Assembly: GCA_902540275.1 (NCBI GenBank)
Contig: CACBMB010000002.1
Location: forward strand, 62,001 to 126,000
DNA from: an uncultured Pelagibacteraceae bacterium
Lineage (GTDB): Bacteria > Pseudomonadota > Alphaproteobacteria > Pelagibacterales > Pelagibacteraceae
Reading direction: 5' to 3'
Length of the DNA: 64,000 bases
The notes beneath the pieces are model-generated. The model had not been told where the DNA came from. It ran no database searches and saw nothing but the letters and a program-made list of their open reading frames with translations. Below, one piece after another: positions 7,357 to 15,530 of this stretch. Both the position numbers and the translations under genes were made by a program. Every line of letters starts with the position of its first letter. The stretch's first letter is position 1.

Positions 7357-9138
7357 TTAAACTAAAGAAGGCTGCTTCTTCATATCCTCTTTTTTAATGC
7401 CAGCAACTTTTACAGGCTTTTTCATTGCATCTCTTCTAAAAGGTTCTCCAAGTTCTTGATTAAGAATTACTTCAATAAATGTTGTAATACCTTTCTTTTG
7501 ATCTTCACAAGATTTTTTAATTGCTGTAGTTGTCTCTTCCATTGTTTTAACGGTAACTCCTTTCAAACCACATGCATCGGCTACTTTTGCATAGCTTAAT
7601 TCTGGATCTAGCTCTGTTCCAACAAAATTATTATCGAACCAAAGAGTCGTGTTTCTTTTTTCTGCACCCCATTGATAATTTCTAAAAATTACCATTGTAA
7701 TTGCTGGCCACTCTTCTCTTGCACAAGAACTCATCTCGTTCATGCTAATTCCAAATGCACCATCACCTGCAAAACCAATTACTGGAGTATTAGGACATCC
7801 AATCTTTGCTCCCAAGATTGATGGGAAACCATAACCACATGGTCCGAATAAACCTGGCGCTAAATATTTTCTAGGTTTTTCAAAAGTTGGATATGCATTT
7901 CCAATAGCACAATTATTTCCAATATCACTTGAAATAATTACATCTTCTGGCATACCAGCTTGAATTGCTCTCCACGCTTGTCTTGGTGACATTCTGTCTT
8001 TATCTCTCTCTCTTGCTTCCTTATTCCAAACCGTTCCTTCATCATCATCTTCATGGTCTAAACTAGATAATTTTTGTAACCATGCTGATTTTGTTTGATG
8101 AATTAAGTCTTTTCTTTTTTGTCTATCAGTATCTCCAGCAGTTGAAGATAATTTTTCTAAAATCTGAGACGCCACCAACTTCGCATCTCCACTTATACCG
8201 ACTGTAACTTTTTTTGTAAGACCAATTCTATCTGGATTCATATCAACCTGAATAATGCTTGCTTTCTTTGGCCAGTAATCAATTCCATATCCTGGAAGTG
8301 TAGAAAAAGGATTTAACCTTGTTCCTAAAGCTAAAACAACATCAGCTTTCGAAATAAGTTCCATTGCAGCTTTTGATCCATTATAACCTAATGGTCCAAC
8401 AGCTAATGGATGACTACCTGGAAAACTATCATTATGTTGATAACCAGAACAAACTGGCGAGTCTAATTTTTCTGCAAGTTTTTTAGTTTCGTCGATTGCA
8501 CCACCAATGACTACTCCTGCTCCTGATAAAATTACTGGGAACTTAGCATCTGATAAAAGTTTTGCAGCTTTGTTAATTGCTTCAGCTCCTCCGCCTTGTC
8601 TCTCTAGTCTTACAATTGGAGGTAAATCAATATCAATTACTTGTGTCCAATAATCTCTAGGTACATTTATTTGAGCAGGTGCTGAACCTCTAATAGCTTT
8701 TTCAATAACTCTATTTAAAACCTCTGCCATTCTTGATGGGTCTCTTACTTCTTCTTGATAACAAACCATATCTTTAAATAAGTTCATTTGCTCAACTTCT
8801 TGAAAACCACCTTGACCCATAGTTTTATTTGCAGCTTGAGGAGTAACTAATAATAAAGGAGTATGATTCCAATAAGCAGTTTTAATTGGAGTAACTAATC
8901 CAGTAATCCCAGGTCCATTTTGTGCAATGACCATTGACATTTTACCTGTAGATCTAGTGTAACCATCAGCTATTAATCCACCATTTGTTTCATGAGCAAC
9001 ATCCCAGAATGTAATTCCAGCATCTGGAAAAATATCTGATATAGGCATGAACGCAGATCCTATAATTCCAAAAGCATGTTCAATACCGTGCATTTGTAAA
9101 ACTTTTACAAAAGCTTCTTCTGTTGTCATTTTTGTCAT
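7357..9138 (-). CDS. xsc: Sulfoacetaldehyde acetyltransferase
   Basis: A 593-residue thiamine-diphosphate enzyme that converts sulfoacetaldehyde plus phosphate to acetyl phosphate and sulfite in the cytoplasm, the central desulfonation step for taurine and isethionate. The N-terminal PYR domain has GIIGSAFMPISDIFPD and the glutamate region AHETNGGLIADGY. The C-terminal PP domain carries the TPP-binding GDGAFGISMNE...N segment near residue 465. Length matches characterised Xsc. ATG at 9138 has AAAGG about 9 nt upstream, which supports it over the second Met. It is divergent to suyAB across a 114-bp regulatory gap, so C2 and C3 sulfonate pathways are co-located. Confidence 0.93.
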   Translation of the reverse strand: MTKMTTEEAFVKVLQMHGIEHAFGIIGSAFMPISDIFPDAGITFWDVAHETNGGLIADGYTRSTGKMSMVIAQNGPGITGLVTPIKTAYWNHTPLLLVTPQAANKTMGQGGFQEVEQMNLFKDMVCYQEEVRDPSRMAEVLNRVIEKAIRGSAPAQINVPRDYWTQVIDIDLPPIVRLERQGGGAEAINKAAKLLSDAKFPVILSGAGVVIGGAIDETKKLAEKLDSPVCSGYQHNDSFPGSHPLAVGPLGYNGSKAAMELISKADVVLALGTRLNPFSTLPGYGIDYWPKKASIIQVDMNPDRIGLTKKVTVGISGDAKLVASQILEKLSSTAGDTDRQKRKDLIHQTKSAWLQKLSSLDHEDDDEGTVWNKEARERDKDRMSPRQAWRAIQAGMPEDVIISSDIGNNCAIGNAYPTFEKPRKYLAPGLFGPCGYGFPSILGAKIGCPNTPVIGFAGDGAFGISMNEMSSCAREEWPAITMVIFRNYQWGAEKRNTTLWFDNNFVGTELDPELSYAKVADACGLKGVTVKTMEETTTAIKKSCEDQKKGITTFIEVILNQELGEPFRRDAMKKPVKVAGIKKEDMKKQPSLV

Positions 9139-9252: not shown

Positions 9253-9537
9253 ATGGCAACAGATATAATAATCCACGACCAAAAAGACAACGTGGGTGTA
9301 GTTGTTATTGAAAAAATCACTCCAAAACAAGACTGTAAATGCTGGATTATGGAAAATGATACTTCTACAAACATTCAATCAATGGACGAAATCCCTTTAG
9401 GACATAAAATAGCTATGGTTGATCTTAAAGAAGGAGATACAATTCTTAAATATGGTCATGATATTGGTAAAGTTGTAAAATCAATAAAAAAAGGTGAACA
9501 TGTACACGTTCACAATGTTAAAACAAAGAAGTGGTAA
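9253..9537 (+). CDS. suyA: Sulfolactate sulfo-lyase, small (alpha) subunit
   Basis: A 94-residue SAF-domain protein of the UxaA/altronate-dehydratase N-terminal family. The start [18 protein letters not shown] and the glycine-rich [14 protein letters not shown] and [11 protein letters not shown] segments are characteristic. With SuyB it cleaves (2R)-3-sulfolactate to pyruvate and sulfite. An in-frame extension reaches back to 9196, but ATG at 9253 gives the normal family start. It is followed after 4 nt by suyB, and the pair next to xsc makes the sulfonate assignment much stronger than a generic altronate dehydratase call. Confidence 0.85.
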
Positions 9538-9541
9538 TGAT

Positions 9542-10708
9542 ATGGAAATTCCAAAAAGTTTTTTAGGCTACAAGAGAGAAAATGGAAGAGCAGGAACAAG
9601 AAACCATGTAATTATTCTTCCAGTAGACGATATATCAAATGCATGTGCTGAGGCAGTAGCAAATAATATTAAAGGTACAATAGCTCTTCCTCATTCATAT
9701 GGAAGGCTTCAATTTGGAGCAGATCTTGAATTACATTTTAGAACTATGATTGGAACTGGAAGTAATCCAAATGTTGCTGCAGTAATAGTAATAGGTATTG
9801 AGCCTAAGTGGACTAAAAAAATTGTTGATGGAATTGCTAAAACTGGAAAACCTGTTGAAGGATTTCACATTGAACGTACAGGTGATATTGGGACAGTAAT
9901 GAAAGCATCAAAAAAAGCTCAAGAGTTTGTTATGTGGGCATCGGAAAAACAAAGAGAGGAATGTCCTATTAGTGATTTATGGATCTCAGTAAAATGTGGA
10001 GAGTCTGATACAACATCAGGTTTAGCTGCTAATCCTACAGTAGGTAATTTGATGGATAAACTTGAACCATTGGGGGTTCATTTATGTTTTGGTGAAACTT
10101 CAGAACTTACTGGAGCTGAAAAAGTATGTGCAACTAGAGGAGCAACCAAAGAAGCCTCAGATAAATTTATGAAGACTTGGAATGCCTATAACGACTTTAT
10201 TTTAAAGGAAGCAACAGATGATCTTTCTGAAAGTCAACCAACTGCAGGAAATATCGCAGGTGGTTTAACTACTATTGAAGAAAAAGCATTTGGAAATTTT
10301 CAAAAAATTGGAAACTGTAAATTTGTTGATGTTTTAGAACCTGCAGAAGAGCCAAAAAAAGGAAAAGGCCTATATTTTATGGATACTTCTTCAGCAGCAG
10401 CAGAATGTGTAACTTTACAAGCTGCAGCTGGTTTTAATATTCATCTTTTTCCTACTGGCCAAGGAAACATTGTAGGTAATCCTATTGAACCAGTTATAAA
10501 ATTAACTGCAAACCCTCTGACAGTAAAAGGGATGGGTGAACACATTGATTGTGATGTCTCTAAAATTCTTTCACGAGAAATGAACATGTCTCAAGCTGGG
10601 GATAAACTTATTGAAACTACTTTAAAAGTTGCCAATGGAAGGTTGACTTGTGCTGAAGCCTTGGGTCATAGAGAGTTTGTAATGACCAAACTTTATAGAA
10701 GTGCTTAA
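9542..10708 (+). CDS. suyB: Sulfolactate sulfo-lyase, large (beta) subunit
   Basis: A 388-residue protein of the UxaA C-terminal/galactarate dehydratase family. It opens with [17 protein letters not shown], the family's signature RxxGRxGxRN region, and has [20 protein letters not shown] near residue 145, a conserved iron- and substrate-binding region with a cysteine. With SuyA it releases sulfite from sulfolactate, feeding pyruvate to central metabolism. An in-frame extension overlaps suyA from 9494, but ATG at 9542 directly follows the suyA stop and matches the family start. It converges with the sulfite exporter gene with a 4-bp gap. Confidence 0.85.
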
Positions 10709-10712
10709 ATAA

Positions 10713-11798
10713 TTATTTAGCTGGTTTCATAAAATATTTTTTTCGAAATTTAGAAATAGCTCTTCTAACAAAAGCAGCTCCAATTCCTAAAAAAACTGCA
10801 AACATAATTGAAAATAGTCCATAAAAGAATGGCATATCTTTTGAAAAATCTTTTATAAAACTTGAAAAGAAATTTAAATCTTGAGTTTCTGTTAAAGTTT
10901 TTCCATTTTTAATTTCCTCTGCAAAAAATGTGTCATAAGCAATCGCAATACCAACTATTAATAATAAAATTGCAAGCAATGCTTTTAAACCTGAACTATC
11001 AATTTGTTCTCCAACTTTTTGACCCACTTGAACTCCAATAATTGAACCAACTACTAGTAGTAAAACTAACATTAAATCTATTGAACCATAATTTATTGAA
11101 TGTAAAAATGTAACTATTACACTAACAAAGATTGTGACAAACAAAGATGTTCCTGGGACTAATCTTGTAGGCATCTTAATTATATAGATCATTGCAGGAA
11201 CTAAAATAAAAGCTCCACCAATCCCCATGATTGCAGCAATAAAACCAACAATTAATCCAATTATGATAGGTGTGAAAATACTTTCATATAACTTCGATTT
11301 TGGAAATCTCATTCTAAATGGAAGACCATGAATCCAATAATGAACATGTAATTTTTTTTTCTCTACAACATTTTTTTTTGCTTTGTCAATTTCGCCAAGA
11401 CTTTCTACCAACATTAATGTACCGATTATTGCTAAAATATACATATACGCTAAAGAAATAACTGTATCTATTTTACCTATACCTTTGAAATATGTGAAAG
11501 TATAAATACCAAGAGCGGTTCCAATCGAACCACCAATTACAATCATTAAGCCCATCTTGTAATCCAAAGTATTTTTTAACCAATGAGTAGTAGATCCTGA
11601 TACTGAAGTTGCTAAGATATTATTAGCTTCATTAGCAACAGCATATGCTGGAGGGACTCCCATAAAAATTAAAAATGGTGTCATTAAAAATCCTCCTCCT
11701 ACACCAAATAAACCTGAGAGAACTCCAACTATTGCGCTTAATAAAAGTATTTCTACTGGATTAATAAAAACTTGGGCTATAGGTAAAAAAACTTCCAT
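10713..11798 (-). CDS. tauE: TauE/SafE-family sulfite exporter
   Basis: A 361-residue inner-membrane permease of the TSUP (TauE/SafE) family with about eight to nine membrane segments and internal duplication: GVLSGLFGVGGGFLMTP near residue 25 and FIAAIMGIGGAFILVPAM near residue 187 are the paired family motifs. In sulfonate-degrading bacteria these proteins export sulfite or sulfoacetate. Here it lies between the sulfite-producing xsc/suyAB and the sulfite-oxidising aprBA, so sulfite export is the best reading. ATG at 11798. It is followed upstream by a tiny membrane gene on the same strand. Confidence 0.85.
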   Translation of the reverse strand: MEVFLPIAQVFINPVEILLLSAIVGVLSGLFGVGGGFLMTPFLIFMGVPPAYAVANEANNILATSVSGSTTHWLKNTLDYKMGLMIVIGGSIGTALGIYTFTYFKGIGKIDTVISLAYMYILAIIGTLMLVESLGEIDKAKKNVVEKKKLHVHYWIHGLPFRMRFPKSKLYESIFTPIIIGLIVGFIAAIMGIGGAFILVPAMIYIIKMPTRLVPGTSLFVTIFVSVIVTFLHSINYGSIDLMLVLLLVVGSIIGVQVGQKVGEQIDSSGLKALLAILLLIVGIAIAYDTFFAEEIKNGKTLTETQDLNFFSSFIKDFSKDMPFFYGLFSIMFAVFLGIGAAFVRRAISKFRKKYFMKPAK

Positions 11799-11825: not shown

Positions 11826-11960
11826 TTACTTTATAGTCAAAAAAGTTCCAACTAAGATTACACCCCAACAAGCAGCAATTGCAGAAAAAATCCCAGTTTT
11901 TATTAAAGTTGTTTTTTTATCTTTTATATTTTGAGGAATTTTTATTTTTGAAAAGTGCAT
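11826..11960 (-). CDS. 44-residue single-span membrane protein
   Basis: Translating the minus strand of the gap between tauE and the NTF2-like gene gives a 44-codon frame from ATG 11960 to TAA 11826. It has a basic N-terminal tail (MHFSKIKIPQNIKDKKTTL) and one hydrophobic helix with Cys and Trp (FSAIAACWGVILVGTFLTI), ending in lysine. It lies 27 bp upstream of tauE on the same strand, so it could be a small subunit of the exporter or of the AprM complex. No family recognised. The positive-inside layout of tail and helix argues for a real gene. Confidence 0.6.
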   Translation of the reverse strand: MHFSKIKIPQNIKDKKTTLIKTGIFSAIAACWGVILVGTFLTIK

Positions 11961-12004
11961 CTATATCTTTCAATACACCTAGTGAAAAAATTGTCAAACT
12001 TTAA

Positions 12005-12355
12005 TTAATATATTGTAGCCCCAAAAATCTTGACTTCTCCATCCTCAATTCCAAGAACCAACCTGCCTAAAAACTCTCCTGGTATCTCTTTATTAGTTTG
12101 CTTAATCAATACAGTGATGTGCTCGCCCCTTCTCAATGTTCCAAATGGCTCATAGGTCTCTTTTAAGTTTGTTATGATTTTGTTGTTTGCCCATTGTTTG
12201 CCAAGCTCTACTTCATTAGCTCCAAACAACATTTGTGTAGAAAAATCTCTTGTGAAACCACCATAATCTTTCATATTTGAGGCTTTAACAAGATTTTCCC
12301 AAAAAGGTTTTGCTATTGCAAATATCTCCTCATCTGATTTTGCCAATAGGTCCAT
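12005..12355 (-). CDS. NTF2/SnoaL-like protein downstream of aprA
   Basis: A 116-residue protein with the composition of a cone-shaped NTF2-like fold: an N-terminal helix pair (EEIFAIAKPFWENLVKASNM) followed by strands (GEHITVLIKQ, GEFLGRLVLGIEDGEVKIFGATIY). It begins 17 nt after aprA on the same strand, so it is probably in the apr operon. The role is unknown; a small accessory to the APS reductase or to sulfite handling is possible but unproven. No catalytic residues can be assigned. Confidence 0.65.
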   Translation of the reverse strand: MDLLAKSDEEIFAIAKPFWENLVKASNMKDYGGFTRDFSTQMLFGANEVELGKQWANNKIITNLKETYEPFGTLRRGEHITVLIKQTNKEIPGEFLGRLVLGIEDGEVKIFGATIY

Positions 12356-12372: not shown

Positions 12373-14232
12373 TTAGGATGCCTTCTTCTTTTCTTTTTCA
12401 TCAACAATATGATAAACTGGTACTTTTTCCATCGTAAACTTACCAGTTTTAGGATCACGTCTAGATACTGTTAAACAGTGCCAGTTATCATCATCGAGTT
12501 TCATATGATCACCTCTGTAATAATAACCCGGCCAACGAGTTTCTTCTCTAAATAATGTATGTTCAGTTACACACTGAGAAGTAAGGGCTCTATGTTTTAA
12601 TTCCCAAGCTCTCATTAATTGATGGTAATCTTCAGCGCCTACTTTTTCAAGGTCCTCCTGAAGCCAATCAAGTAATTCAAGAGCTCTTTTTAACATATTG
12701 CCATTAGTCATATAGTTTGAGGTGATACCACCGACATATTCATCCATAATTTTTTGAAGTCTTTGTAAACCTTGTATTGGAGAAATATAACTCGGAGAAA
12801 CAGTACCTCCAGTAATTTCATTTTGAGCAATAGTATAAGTGTCCAAAGGTTTATAAACAGCTTTTTTAAAATCATCACACTGTTTATCTGAAACATTTAT
12901 TCCATCAGCCTTTTTATCTTGAATATATTTAACAGCTGCTTTAGCAGCTAAACGGCCTTCAGTAAATGAACCTGATGAAAACTTATGTGCACTTCCACCA
13001 ACCGTGTCTCCTGCTCCAAAAAGTCCATCAATAGTTAACATTCTGTTATATCCCCAAAAATATTCTGGTGGAGATAAATCTTCTGGACCACTAACCCAAG
13101 CTCCAGAGCATGTAGCATGCGATCCCATTACATAAGGTTCAGACGTAGTTAACTCAGGATTTGTATATTTTGGATCAATGTTTTGTGAAGCCCAAACTAC
13201 AGCTTGTCCAACTGTCATACCTAAAAAATTTTCCCAACCTACAGTTTCTAAATGAGGATCTTGGAATGCTTCCTTTGTTACCATATGAATAGGTCCACCC
13301 CCTGCAGCAACTTCCTGAATAAACGCATGATTTCTTAAACATGTAGGAGTTGGATGATGATCGATATACTCTCCTACTAATTCTTTAGTTTGATCATACC
13401 ATTTTTTCTCATAGTTTTCACCGTTAGCATTTTGCGTATATGTTTTTAAATGTAAAAAGTATGCTCCAACAGGTCCGTAACCATCTTTAAATCTGCATAA
13501 TACAATTCTATTTTCCATTTGAGTCATTTTTGCACCAGCTGCAATAGGTAAAGCATACGCTGATCCATTGCTCCATGGTGCATACCAAGTTCTCCCCATA
13601 CCTTCACCAACAGCTCTAGGTTTAAAAATATGTGATGCTCCACCTGCTGCAACAATTACAGCTTTTGCTCTAAAAACGTGGAAATCTCCAGTTCTCATAT
13701 TAAAACCAACAGCTCCTCCAATTCTATTTTCTTTGGCCTCATCCATCAAAAGATGAGTGACCATTATTCTATTATAAATTTTGTCTGCAGATTTTTTTGC
13801 TGCTTCAGCAACAATTGGTTTATAGCTTTCACCATGAATCATGATTTGCCATTTACCTTCTCTTAAGTATCTTCCAGTTTTTTCATTTTTCATCATTGGA
13901 AGACCCCATTCATCAAACATGTGAACAGTTGAATCTACATGACGAGCCATGTCATATCCTAAATCTTCTCTAACCATTCCCATTAAATCATTTCTGGCAT
14001 ATCTTACATGGTCTTCAGGTTGATTTTCATCCCATTGCATGCCCATATAACAATTAATTGCATATAAACCTTGTGCGACTGCACCACTTCGATCAATGTT
14101 TGCTTTTTCAACACAAACAATTTTTAATTCTCTTCCCCAATGTCTGGCTTCAAATGTTGCTCCTGTGCCAGCCATTCCACCACCAACAACTAATACATCA
14201 CATTCTTCGTAATGTGTTTTGTGCTTAGCCAT
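12373..14232 (-). CDS. aprA: Adenylylsulfate (APS) reductase, alpha subunit
   Basis: A 619-residue flavoprotein of the fumarate reductase/AprA family. The FAD-binding motif is CDVLVVGGGMAGTGATFEA near residues 9-27, and the C-terminal block (TRWPGYYYRGDHMKLDDDNW, residues about 565-585) is diagnostic of AprA. In a sulfite-oxidising cell it joins sulfite and AMP to form APS and passes two electrons to the AprB clusters. The gene starts at an ATG overlapping the aprB stop by 1 nt (TAATG), so the two are translationally coupled. No sulfate adenylyltransferase gene lies in the window, so the ATP-yielding step must be elsewhere or absent. Confidence 0.95.
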   Translation of the reverse strand: MAKHKTHYEECDVLVVGGGMAGTGATFEARHWGRELKIVCVEKANIDRSGAVAQGLYAINCYMGMQWDENQPEDHVRYARNDLMGMVREDLGYDMARHVDSTVHMFDEWGLPMMKNEKTGRYLREGKWQIMIHGESYKPIVAEAAKKSADKIYNRIMVTHLLMDEAKENRIGGAVGFNMRTGDFHVFRAKAVIVAAGGASHIFKPRAVGEGMGRTWYAPWSNGSAYALPIAAGAKMTQMENRIVLCRFKDGYGPVGAYFLHLKTYTQNANGENYEKKWYDQTKELVGEYIDHHPTPTCLRNHAFIQEVAAGGGPIHMVTKEAFQDPHLETVGWENFLGMTVGQAVVWASQNIDPKYTNPELTTSEPYVMGSHATCSGAWVSGPEDLSPPEYFWGYNRMLTIDGLFGAGDTVGGSAHKFSSGSFTEGRLAAKAAVKYIQDKKADGINVSDKQCDDFKKAVYKPLDTYTIAQNEITGGTVSPSYISPIQGLQRLQKIMDEYVGGITSNYMTNGNMLKRALELLDWLQEDLEKVGAEDYHQLMRAWELKHRALTSQCVTEHTLFREETRWPGYYYRGDHMKLDDDNWHCLTVSRRDPKTGKFTMEKVPVYHIVDEKEKKKAS

Positions 14233-14702
14233 TAATAATAAACCCCTTTTTTAAAAGAATCTTTAGGTACTGATGGTAGTTCTTTTTTTGTATTTAAGCC
14301 CTCTGGCTCACTATATAATATTTGAGAATTTATTTCCCCTTGATTAGGCGTATCACCATCAGCAAGTTTAGGAATAAATTTACCCCAAGGTTTTGTTGTA
14401 ATCGGCGAGACAAAATTTTTCTCTGTTCCATTTCTAAATTTTATCTTCCAAGAAATGGTTCCTTTTTCTTCTTCTCTTCTAACTCTCACGCTGTGTCCCA
14501 TCGGAGCAAAATCGGCATAACCTCTCACATCAATCGCATGATTAGGACACGCTTTTACACACGAATAACATTCCCAACAAAAATTCGGTTCAATATTTTT
14601 TGCTCTTCTTATATTTTCATCAATGTGCATGATGTCTGATGGACATATATCCACACAATGACCACAACCATCACATCTTGTCATGTATACAAAAGTTGAC
14701 AT
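14232..14702 (-). CDS. aprB: Adenylylsulfate (APS) reductase, beta subunit
   Basis: A 156-residue iron-sulfur protein. Two [4Fe-4S] clusters are encoded near the N-terminus: RCDGCGHCVDICPSD (C9-C20 region) and CWECYSCVKACPNHAID (residues about 42-58). After the ferredoxin domain comes the AprB-specific tail that wraps round AprA (GTISWKIKFRNGTEKNF and later). It carries electrons from the AprA flavin towards the membrane. It lies 33 nt after aprM and overlaps aprA by 1 nt. Confidence 0.95.
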   Translation of the reverse strand: MSTFVYMTRCDGCGHCVDICPSDIMHIDENIRRAKNIEPNFCWECYSCVKACPNHAIDVRGYADFAPMGHSVRVRREEEKGTISWKIKFRNGTEKNFVSPITTKPWGKFIPKLADGDTPNQGEINSQILYSEPEGLNTKKELPSVPKDSFKKGVYY

Positions 14703-14735: not shown

Positions 14736-15530
14736 TTAATAATGTTTTGGCTCTTCTCTTTTTATACCTAGGCCAAATTGTTCAGGAGCATCAGCTGGTG
14801 GAGGTAAATTATCCCTAGATCCATCCGCCTCTGCTAAATTTTTTTGAATAGCTGCTCCTGGTTTATAAAACATGTGTGCAAATTTTGACCAATAAACACC
14901 TCCAAACAAAATCAAATTGGATGCAACAAATAAAGTTAAAAATAAATAAGATAAACCGGTTTGCCCATTAAATTGAGTAAATGACCAAGCTAACCCAAAA
15001 GTTGAACAGGCAAGTAATGCTAAAACAAATAAATCGGCTTTAATGATTCTATACCAAGGATGAGCCTCTGCAGATACATCAACCCTTAAAAAAAACCAAA
15101 ACCAATATCCTCCTAGGCAAGTTAGTATTGCTCCTGCATGCCAAATTATTGACCAAGTTTGAGAACTTGGTTTATCAGCACCTGTATAACAAAAAACTAA
15201 AATAGCTGAAGACACCCAAAATAAAATTGTTCCATACATTCCAAGAACATGTGCAAGTCTTCTTTTACCAAAACCTAATTCAGAAGTTGTACCAATATCA
15301 ACAACTGTTGTTTTAGCAATAACAGAAACTTTTTCTCCAACACCTAATTTTTTAGTTGCTGAAAGTTTTGCTTTTTTTGCATTATTTAGAAAATATGTAA
15401 GATTTTTATGATGTATCATTTGAATAATTGTTCCAACAGCAATCAATAAAATCATTGCAATAACAAAAGATTGCATTGCAAATGGTGAAATTGTTTCTGA
15501 TAAAATTGAAAAGGGATTATTACTTAACAT
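14736..15530 (-). CDS. aprM: APS reductase membrane anchor subunit
   Basis: A 264-residue inner-membrane protein with about five membrane helices and conserved histidines placed like heme b ligands of NarI/DsrM-type subunits (RLAHVLGMYG, IIWHAGAILTCLGGY, FAHMFYKPG). The C-terminal 40 residues are soluble and proline-rich. It is first in the aprMBA operon. In bacteria with AprM this protein is thought to link AprBA to the quinone pool in place of the QmoABC complex; that is known of the family, not shown by this sequence. Confidence 0.85.
   Translation of the reverse strand: MLSNNPFSILSETISPFAMQSFVIAMILLIAVGTIIQMIHHKNLTYFLNNAKKAKLSATKKLGVGEKVSVIAKTTVVDIGTTSELGFGKRRLAHVLGMYGTILFWVSSAILVFCYTGADKPSSQTWSIIWHAGAILTCLGGYWFWFFLRVDVSAEAHPWYRIIKADLFVLALLACSTFGLAWSFTQFNGQTGLSYLFLTLFVASNLILFGGVYWSKFAHMFYKPGAAIQKNLAEADGSRDNLPPPADAPEQFGLGIKREEPKHY

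Follow-up and report, generated by a model that had tools for sequence, protein, structure and literature searches.

When sulfonates and other organosulfur compounds are degraded, sulfite is released inside cells. In a genome of an uncultured Pelagibacteraceae bacterium, a reading frame of only 44 codons (orf44) lies between a putative sulfite exporter gene and the genes of APS reductase, which raises the questions of whether such a short frame is a gene and with which of its neighbors the product might act. Disposal of sulfite in SAR11 has so far only been proposed: AprBA was suggested to act in sulfite detoxification, the rest of the sulfate pathway being absent (PMC5069961), and the main text of that paper contains 0 occurrences of tauE. 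A small membrane protein encoded in this locus is a concrete candidate for regulating sulfite export or oxidation in an abundant marine lineage.

Organization of the orf44 locus

The window, that is, the whole stretch of 64,000 nucleotides that was analyzed, is part of a 1.2-Mb genome (G000, 94% completeness). An earlier note on this DNA had described a 44-residue frame in a sulfite block, located between tauE and the apr genes and pointing in the same direction. The frame was found at 11826–11960 on the minus strand, the strand of tauE and aprBA, and it does lie between them, but its immediate upstream neighbor is orf116 and not aprA. The minus-strand gene order in the ORF listing of the window is aprM-aprB-aprA-orf116-orf44-tauE. 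The features of the region are the following.

7357–9138, near the orf44 locus: xsc, sulfoacetaldehyde acetyltransferase (family search)
9253–9537 and 9542–10708, plus strand: two genes resembling galactarate dehydratase, oriented convergently to tauE and beside xsc (family matches below cut-off)
10713..11798, minus strand: tauE, 361 aa, TauE/SafE family of sulfite exporters, the gene that directly follows orf44 (Pfam PF01925, E = 2.5e-45)
11826..11960, minus strand: orf44, ATG ORF of 44 codons, predicted single-span membrane protein MHFSKIKIPQNIKDKKTTLIKTGIFSAIAACWGVILVGTFLTIK, with orthologues, coding selection and one predicted helix
11970..11975, minus strand: −10-like hexamer TATTGA, 16 nt after TTGACA and 9 nt before the orf44 ATG
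11992..11997, minus strand: −35-like hexamer TTGACA, with its start 37 nt upstream of the orf44 ATG
12005..12355, minus strand: orf116, conserved, 116 aa, between aprA and orf44 (no Pfam or NCBIfam family match)
12373..14232, minus strand: aprA, APS reductase alpha subunit (TIGR02061, 990.8 bits, cut-off 641.75)
14232..14702, minus strand: aprB, APS reductase beta subunit (TIGR02060, 189.2 bits, cut-off 135.65)
14736..15530, minus strand: aprM-like gene for a membrane protein of 264 aa, which we take to be AprM (place before aprB; weak QmoC match below cut-off, E = 1.2e-4)

The galactarate-dehydratase-like pair is presumed here to encode, plausibly, the two subunits of a sulfolactate sulfo-lyase. 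Since the apr genes, tauE, xsc, and the dehydratase-like pair lie together, the region looks like a block of sulfite-producing and sulfite-handling genes. In both families included in this study, orf116 is found behind aprA, even in loci without tauE and orf44 (60–66% identity there), and its product is a strong candidate for a protein associated with Apr. In Alphaproteobacteria, TauE has proteins of PF09608 (Alph_Pro_TM) as neighbors; the C-terminal end of these proteins weakly resembles the C-terminal helix of the TauE in the window (residues 311–346; 10713–10870, minus strand; E = 2.1e-4, below cut-off), whereas orf44 has no match to PF09608. The TauE of the other family stops short of this helix.

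The conserved hexamer TTGACA upstream of orf44 is present in all of the 26 best-scoring upstream sequences out of 49, and lower-scoring members carry variants such as TTGCAT and TTGCAA. Among 75 loci with an intact orf44 just upstream of tauE (see below), it starts 36–38 nt before the ATG in 74 and 28 nt before it in one, where a different ATG was taken. Upstream stretches from 74 of the 75 loci (61 distinct) were aligned on TTGACA, which makes these six columns invariant by construction; the columns of a GGTGTA motif are also all at 1.0, and the sequence immediately upstream of the ATG is variable. A generic consensus promoter scan of the region gave no excess of hits (23 vs. a shuffle mean of 21.8) and did not list the orf44 element, so that a role of TTGACA/TATTGA as the orf44 promoter is suggested by its conservation. 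With the −10-like hexamer 9 nt from the ATG, the orf44 transcript would have almost no leader, and since the element lies before orf44 and orf44 closely upstream of tauE, the two genes probably share a transcript in most Pelagibacter genomes. In sister genera that carry orf44 (L168–L170), inspection by eye showed an element upstream of tauE and a weaker one upstream of orf44, and there the two genes appear to have separate elements.

Coding selection and predicted structure of ORF44

The orf44 frame is open in 30 out of 30 loci (L002–L031, including that of the window's own genome), and 28 of these share the order orf116-orf44-tauE; the exceptions are L026, with no tauE within reach, and L029, with no orf116. 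Of 80 Pelagibacterales tauE loci, 75 contain an intact orf44 just upstream of tauE, with a gap of 21–29 nt in 74 loci and 48 nt in one (these 80 loci and the other genome sets share genomes, and the counts are not independent). In four of the five remaining loci (L232, L250, L255, and L261 in genomes G721–G724) tauE does not directly follow orf44, and an open orf44 frame is kept behind orf116 on the same contig at a distance from tauE of 1.2 kb (G721), 28.2 kb (G722), 3.2 kb (G723), and 31.6 kb (G724); two of these four copies begin with GTG as read by eye. In the fifth locus, L242, orf44 is frameshifted by one base in its N-terminal part. Frameshifts or stops in the homologous position of relatives, which had been named as evidence against a gene, were found in only one of the 80 near relatives (L242) and, farther away, in the genome G276. 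The matches flagged with a stop in G224 and G233 proved to be intact because the stop precedes the ATG.

The intact copies of 135 nt (74 out of 75, 66 distinct) were used to compare the reading frames. The first, second, and third codon positions diverge on average by 0.145, 0.069, and 0.322, and the orf44 frame has a pN/pS of 0.32 overall, 0.48 in the N-terminal stretch, and 0.20 in residues 19–44, the helix half. The other two sense frames display values of 1.08 and 1.75 and the antisense frames 1.52, 0.38, and 1.40, the frame with the value of 0.38 being the one that shares the wobble column. Among more diverse copies (13 out of 21 of the 44-codon genes), pairwise dN/dS is mostly 0.1–0.5 and does not exceed 0.72, dS being saturated in one pair. 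The orf44 gene is a protein-coding gene under frame-specific purifying selection, as the ratio of synonymous to nonsynonymous changes, proposed earlier as a check, bears out. A length of only 44 codons is what an untranslated chance ORF might have, but orthologues are kept across genomes, and both the codon-position divergence and pN/pS contradict such an origin, which is rejected here as extremely improbable.

AlphaFold2 models ORF44 as one helix (residues 10–43) with a mean pLDDT of 77.0; the blocks that make up residues 21–40 average 90 and 92. Together with the orthologues this supports a conserved single-helix microprotein, and ORF44 is predicted to be a single-span membrane protein with one hydrophobic helix. 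Since the N-terminal part is rich in lysine, the topology is most likely N-in, C-out. Among 26 diverse members, M1 (partly through start choice), K21, W32, and T39 are invariant, and the consensus of the helix region is K-x-G-I..G-L-x-A-Y-W-G-V-I-L-x-G-T-F. Of the Cys-Trp pair that had been pointed out in the membrane span, only the tryptophan is thus a feature of the family: the residue preceding Trp32 is Tyr in 18 of the 26 members, Cys in five, Ala in two, and Thr in one, and the cysteine is invariant in the near clade only (66 out of 66 distinct copies).

A search with ORF44 of the window and the 26 members found no significant Pfam, NCBIfam, or PDB sequence match (the best family E-values were 0.016 for Pfam and 0.12 for NCBIfam, one member each), and ORF44 of the window matched none of the curated small-subunit profiles searched (AcrZ, KdpF, CydX, PetM, and others; 0 families). 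The protein is therefore uncatalogued with regard to these three databases, as had been supposed, and no description of orf44 was found in the titles and abstract openings of the open-access papers listed by literature searches. The GMSC catalogue is described as holding 965 million smORFs (PMC11364881), and orf44 may therefore be present there without a function. Overall, orf44 encodes a small conserved protein, predicted to be single-span, that is nameless in Pfam, NCBIfam, and PDB and is located within a transport and redox locus.

Distribution of orf44 relative to tauE and aprA

The distribution of orf44 was analyzed in an order sample of 297 genomes: 198 from the genus itself, 46 from its sister genera within the family, and 53 from another family. 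Some of these genomes are incomplete (as low as 53%), and single absences are therefore soft. Within the genus, an orf44 match was present at E ≤ 0.01 in 185 out of 198 genomes and at E ≤ 1.2e-6 in 182, the latter being strong sequence matches among the best places listed, with the neighborhoods opened for part of them. The three weak matches belong to G009 and G162, where the locus lacks orf44, and to G276, where a frameshifted remnant was found. Matches to tauE and to aprA were each found in 188 out of 198 genomes. All 182 genomes with a strong orf44 match contain tauE and 181 contain an aprA match, the contig of the remaining genome (G185) beginning inside the end of aprA as judged by eye. 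The 10 genus genomes without tauE contain no orf44 match, which says little on TauE alone because seven of them also lack aprA and three have a partial aprA match only.

Six genus genomes have a tauE match and no strong orf44 match. Two of these (G199 and G306) contain only a tauE fragment with the start missing, and three (G009, G162, and G219) contain a 44-nt gap between orf116 and tauE in place of orf44. The genome G017, which is outside the order sample, groups with the latter, and the G009/G017/G162/G219 clade has lost orf44. The sixth genome is G276 (L165), in which the frameshifted remnant lies beside an intact tauE with its own promoter-like element and is perhaps an intermediate of gene loss.

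Among the 46 genomes of sister genera, 18 contain aprA, all of these contain tauE, and four (G240, G247, G330, and G327) contain orf44 in the expected place. Two of the other 14 were opened (G116 and G133) and contain a 42-nt gap. No placed orf44 was found in the 26 same-family genomes that contain tauE and lack aprA; one of them, G118, has a weak match (E = 5.1e-4) that is not near its tauE, and its tauE locus lacks orf44. The other family contains tauE in 46 and aprA in 34 of its 53 genomes and orf44 in none, apart from one weak match in G147 (E = 0.0069), the tauE locus of which lacks orf44. A class sample of 385 genomes contained nothing convincing outside the genus among 16 outside-genus matches at E ≤ 0.1. 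The best of these (G597, E = 3.3e-5) is taken as chance because it overlaps a 106-aa ORF, presumably MazG-like, in a different frame; the remaining 15 have E ≥ 0.0056. Matches at E 0.05–0.1 to long frames (mostly 641 aa) in the orthologue search were likewise taken as chance. Since orf44 adjoins tauE, yet stays with orf116 when the two are split and has no placed copy in tauE genomes without apr, it appears to be tied to the combined apr and tauE locus, to apr as much as to tauE.

Candidate partners of ORF44

The reading we prefer, at somewhat less than an even chance, is that the orf44 product assists the TauE sulfite exporter, either as an accessory subunit or as a modulator. ORF44 would be a single-span inner-membrane protein and would act with TauE much as other small helices do that are packed against transporters in bacteria, and in Pelagibacter its gene would have its own promoter, a very short leader, and usually the first position in the tauE transcription unit; in this model, the binding to TauE is inferred, as are the topology, the promoter, and the common transcript. 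The short gap between the two genes in 75 out of 80 tauE loci points to TauE, as do the presence of tauE in all 182 orf44 genomes of the genus, the absence of orf44 from the 10 tauE-less ones, the promoter-like element seen by eye directly before tauE in opened genomes without orf44, and the genome G053, in which orf44 has remained with tauE at a site apart from the apr cluster, beside another gene (agmatinase-like, we assume). Against TauE speak the other DNA between the two genes in G721–G724, where orf44 stays behind orf116, the location of tauE on another contig than orf44 in G001, and the apparently separate elements of the two genes in sister genera. Furthermore, tauE is present and orf44 absent in the G009/G017/G162/G219 clade and in 14 out of 17 g8 genomes with both tauE and aprA, and tauE occurs without a placed orf44 in the 26 aprA-less genomes of the same family and 46 genomes of the other family. 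An AlphaFold2 model of a natural read-through frame (orf44, 10 codons, tauE; 35 rows) has block means of 26–35 for the orf44 part, vs. 77 for ORF44 alone, and an overall mean of 64.5 with a TauE part that is only moderate; it offers no support for docking and seems too weak to count strongly against TauE binding. A more specific version, in which ORF44 is the dedicated single-helix subunit of a two-component TauE+ORF44 exporter and helps to balance export against oxidation by AprBA, is rather unlikely; if true, this would to our knowledge be the first small subunit of the TauE/SafE transporter family.

A close rival to TauE is the APS reductase. Single-span subunits stabilize the membrane part of cytochrome complexes, and ORF44 could do so in a membrane-bound AprM/AprBA complex, a possibility that we regard as somewhat less likely than the TauE reading. 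The 181 aprA matches among the 182 orf44 genomes (G185 being cut by a contig end), the lack of a placed orf44 in all 26 same-family tauE-only genomes (with only the weak match in G118), and the position of orf44 behind orf116 in G721–G724 and G001, where other DNA splits the locus, are consistent with it. On the other hand, the upstream element of orf44 sets it apart from the apr genes, the 34 aprA genomes of the other family lack orf44, and the apr cluster of G053 has no orf44 beside it. The occurrence of a promoter-like element before orf44 copies that are far from tauE (L262, L265, and others; by eye) would fit a stand-alone small membrane protein, such as a modulator of the membrane or of sulfite stress that is present in the locus only for co-regulation; this is unlikely, given that strong matches in the order sample are found only in genomes with both tauE and aprA, again apart from the truncated G185. 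Finally, a short ORF located 21–29 nt before tauE in 74 out of 80 loci resembles a leader peptide, the translation of which would control tauE in cis. The amino acid conservation of the helix is strong, however, and this very improbable explanation is set aside because open, conserved copies survive at 1.2–31.6 kb from tauE in G721–G724.

Both kinds of partner have precedents. CydX and PetM are small single-span subunits of cytochrome complexes, and the KdpF gene is the first gene of kdpFABC. Like CydX and PetM, ORF44 would have a single span, and its locus contains the weakly QmoC-like membrane protein; in contrast, the matches to PetM are only sub-threshold and come from one of the 26 ORF44 members (Pfam, E = 0.2; NCBIfam, E = 0.12). 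KdpF has been called a membrane peptide (PMC5382158), and AcrZ, MgtS, and MgtU are described as small proteins that modulate transporters (PMC10710835). These four proteins resemble ORF44 in being shorter than 50 aa and near or acting on a transporter, as orf44 is near tauE, but ORF44 has no significant match in Pfam, NCBIfam, or PDB, its partner is a presumed one, and TauE belongs to a different transporter family. What the earlier note had observed is confirmed, and its interpretation is partly supported: a conserved single-helix microprotein in the sulfite block is borne out, and the tuning of a transporter or cytochrome complex is a candidate role that fits the location.

The divided loci display some further recurrent gene neighborhoods. 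The genes behind orf44 in G721–G724 are mostly sugar-epimerase-like as judged by eye, and such genes directly follow orf44 in L232, L114, L262, L264, and L265, as if islands of 1.2–31.6 kb had a site of insertion there, between orf44 and tauE. G296 and G724 are probably the same genome, because their coordinates are identical. Behind the apr cluster of G053 (L117, G053:C34), one gene that looks c-type cytochrome-like and one that looks thioredoxin-like by eye take the place of orf44-tauE.
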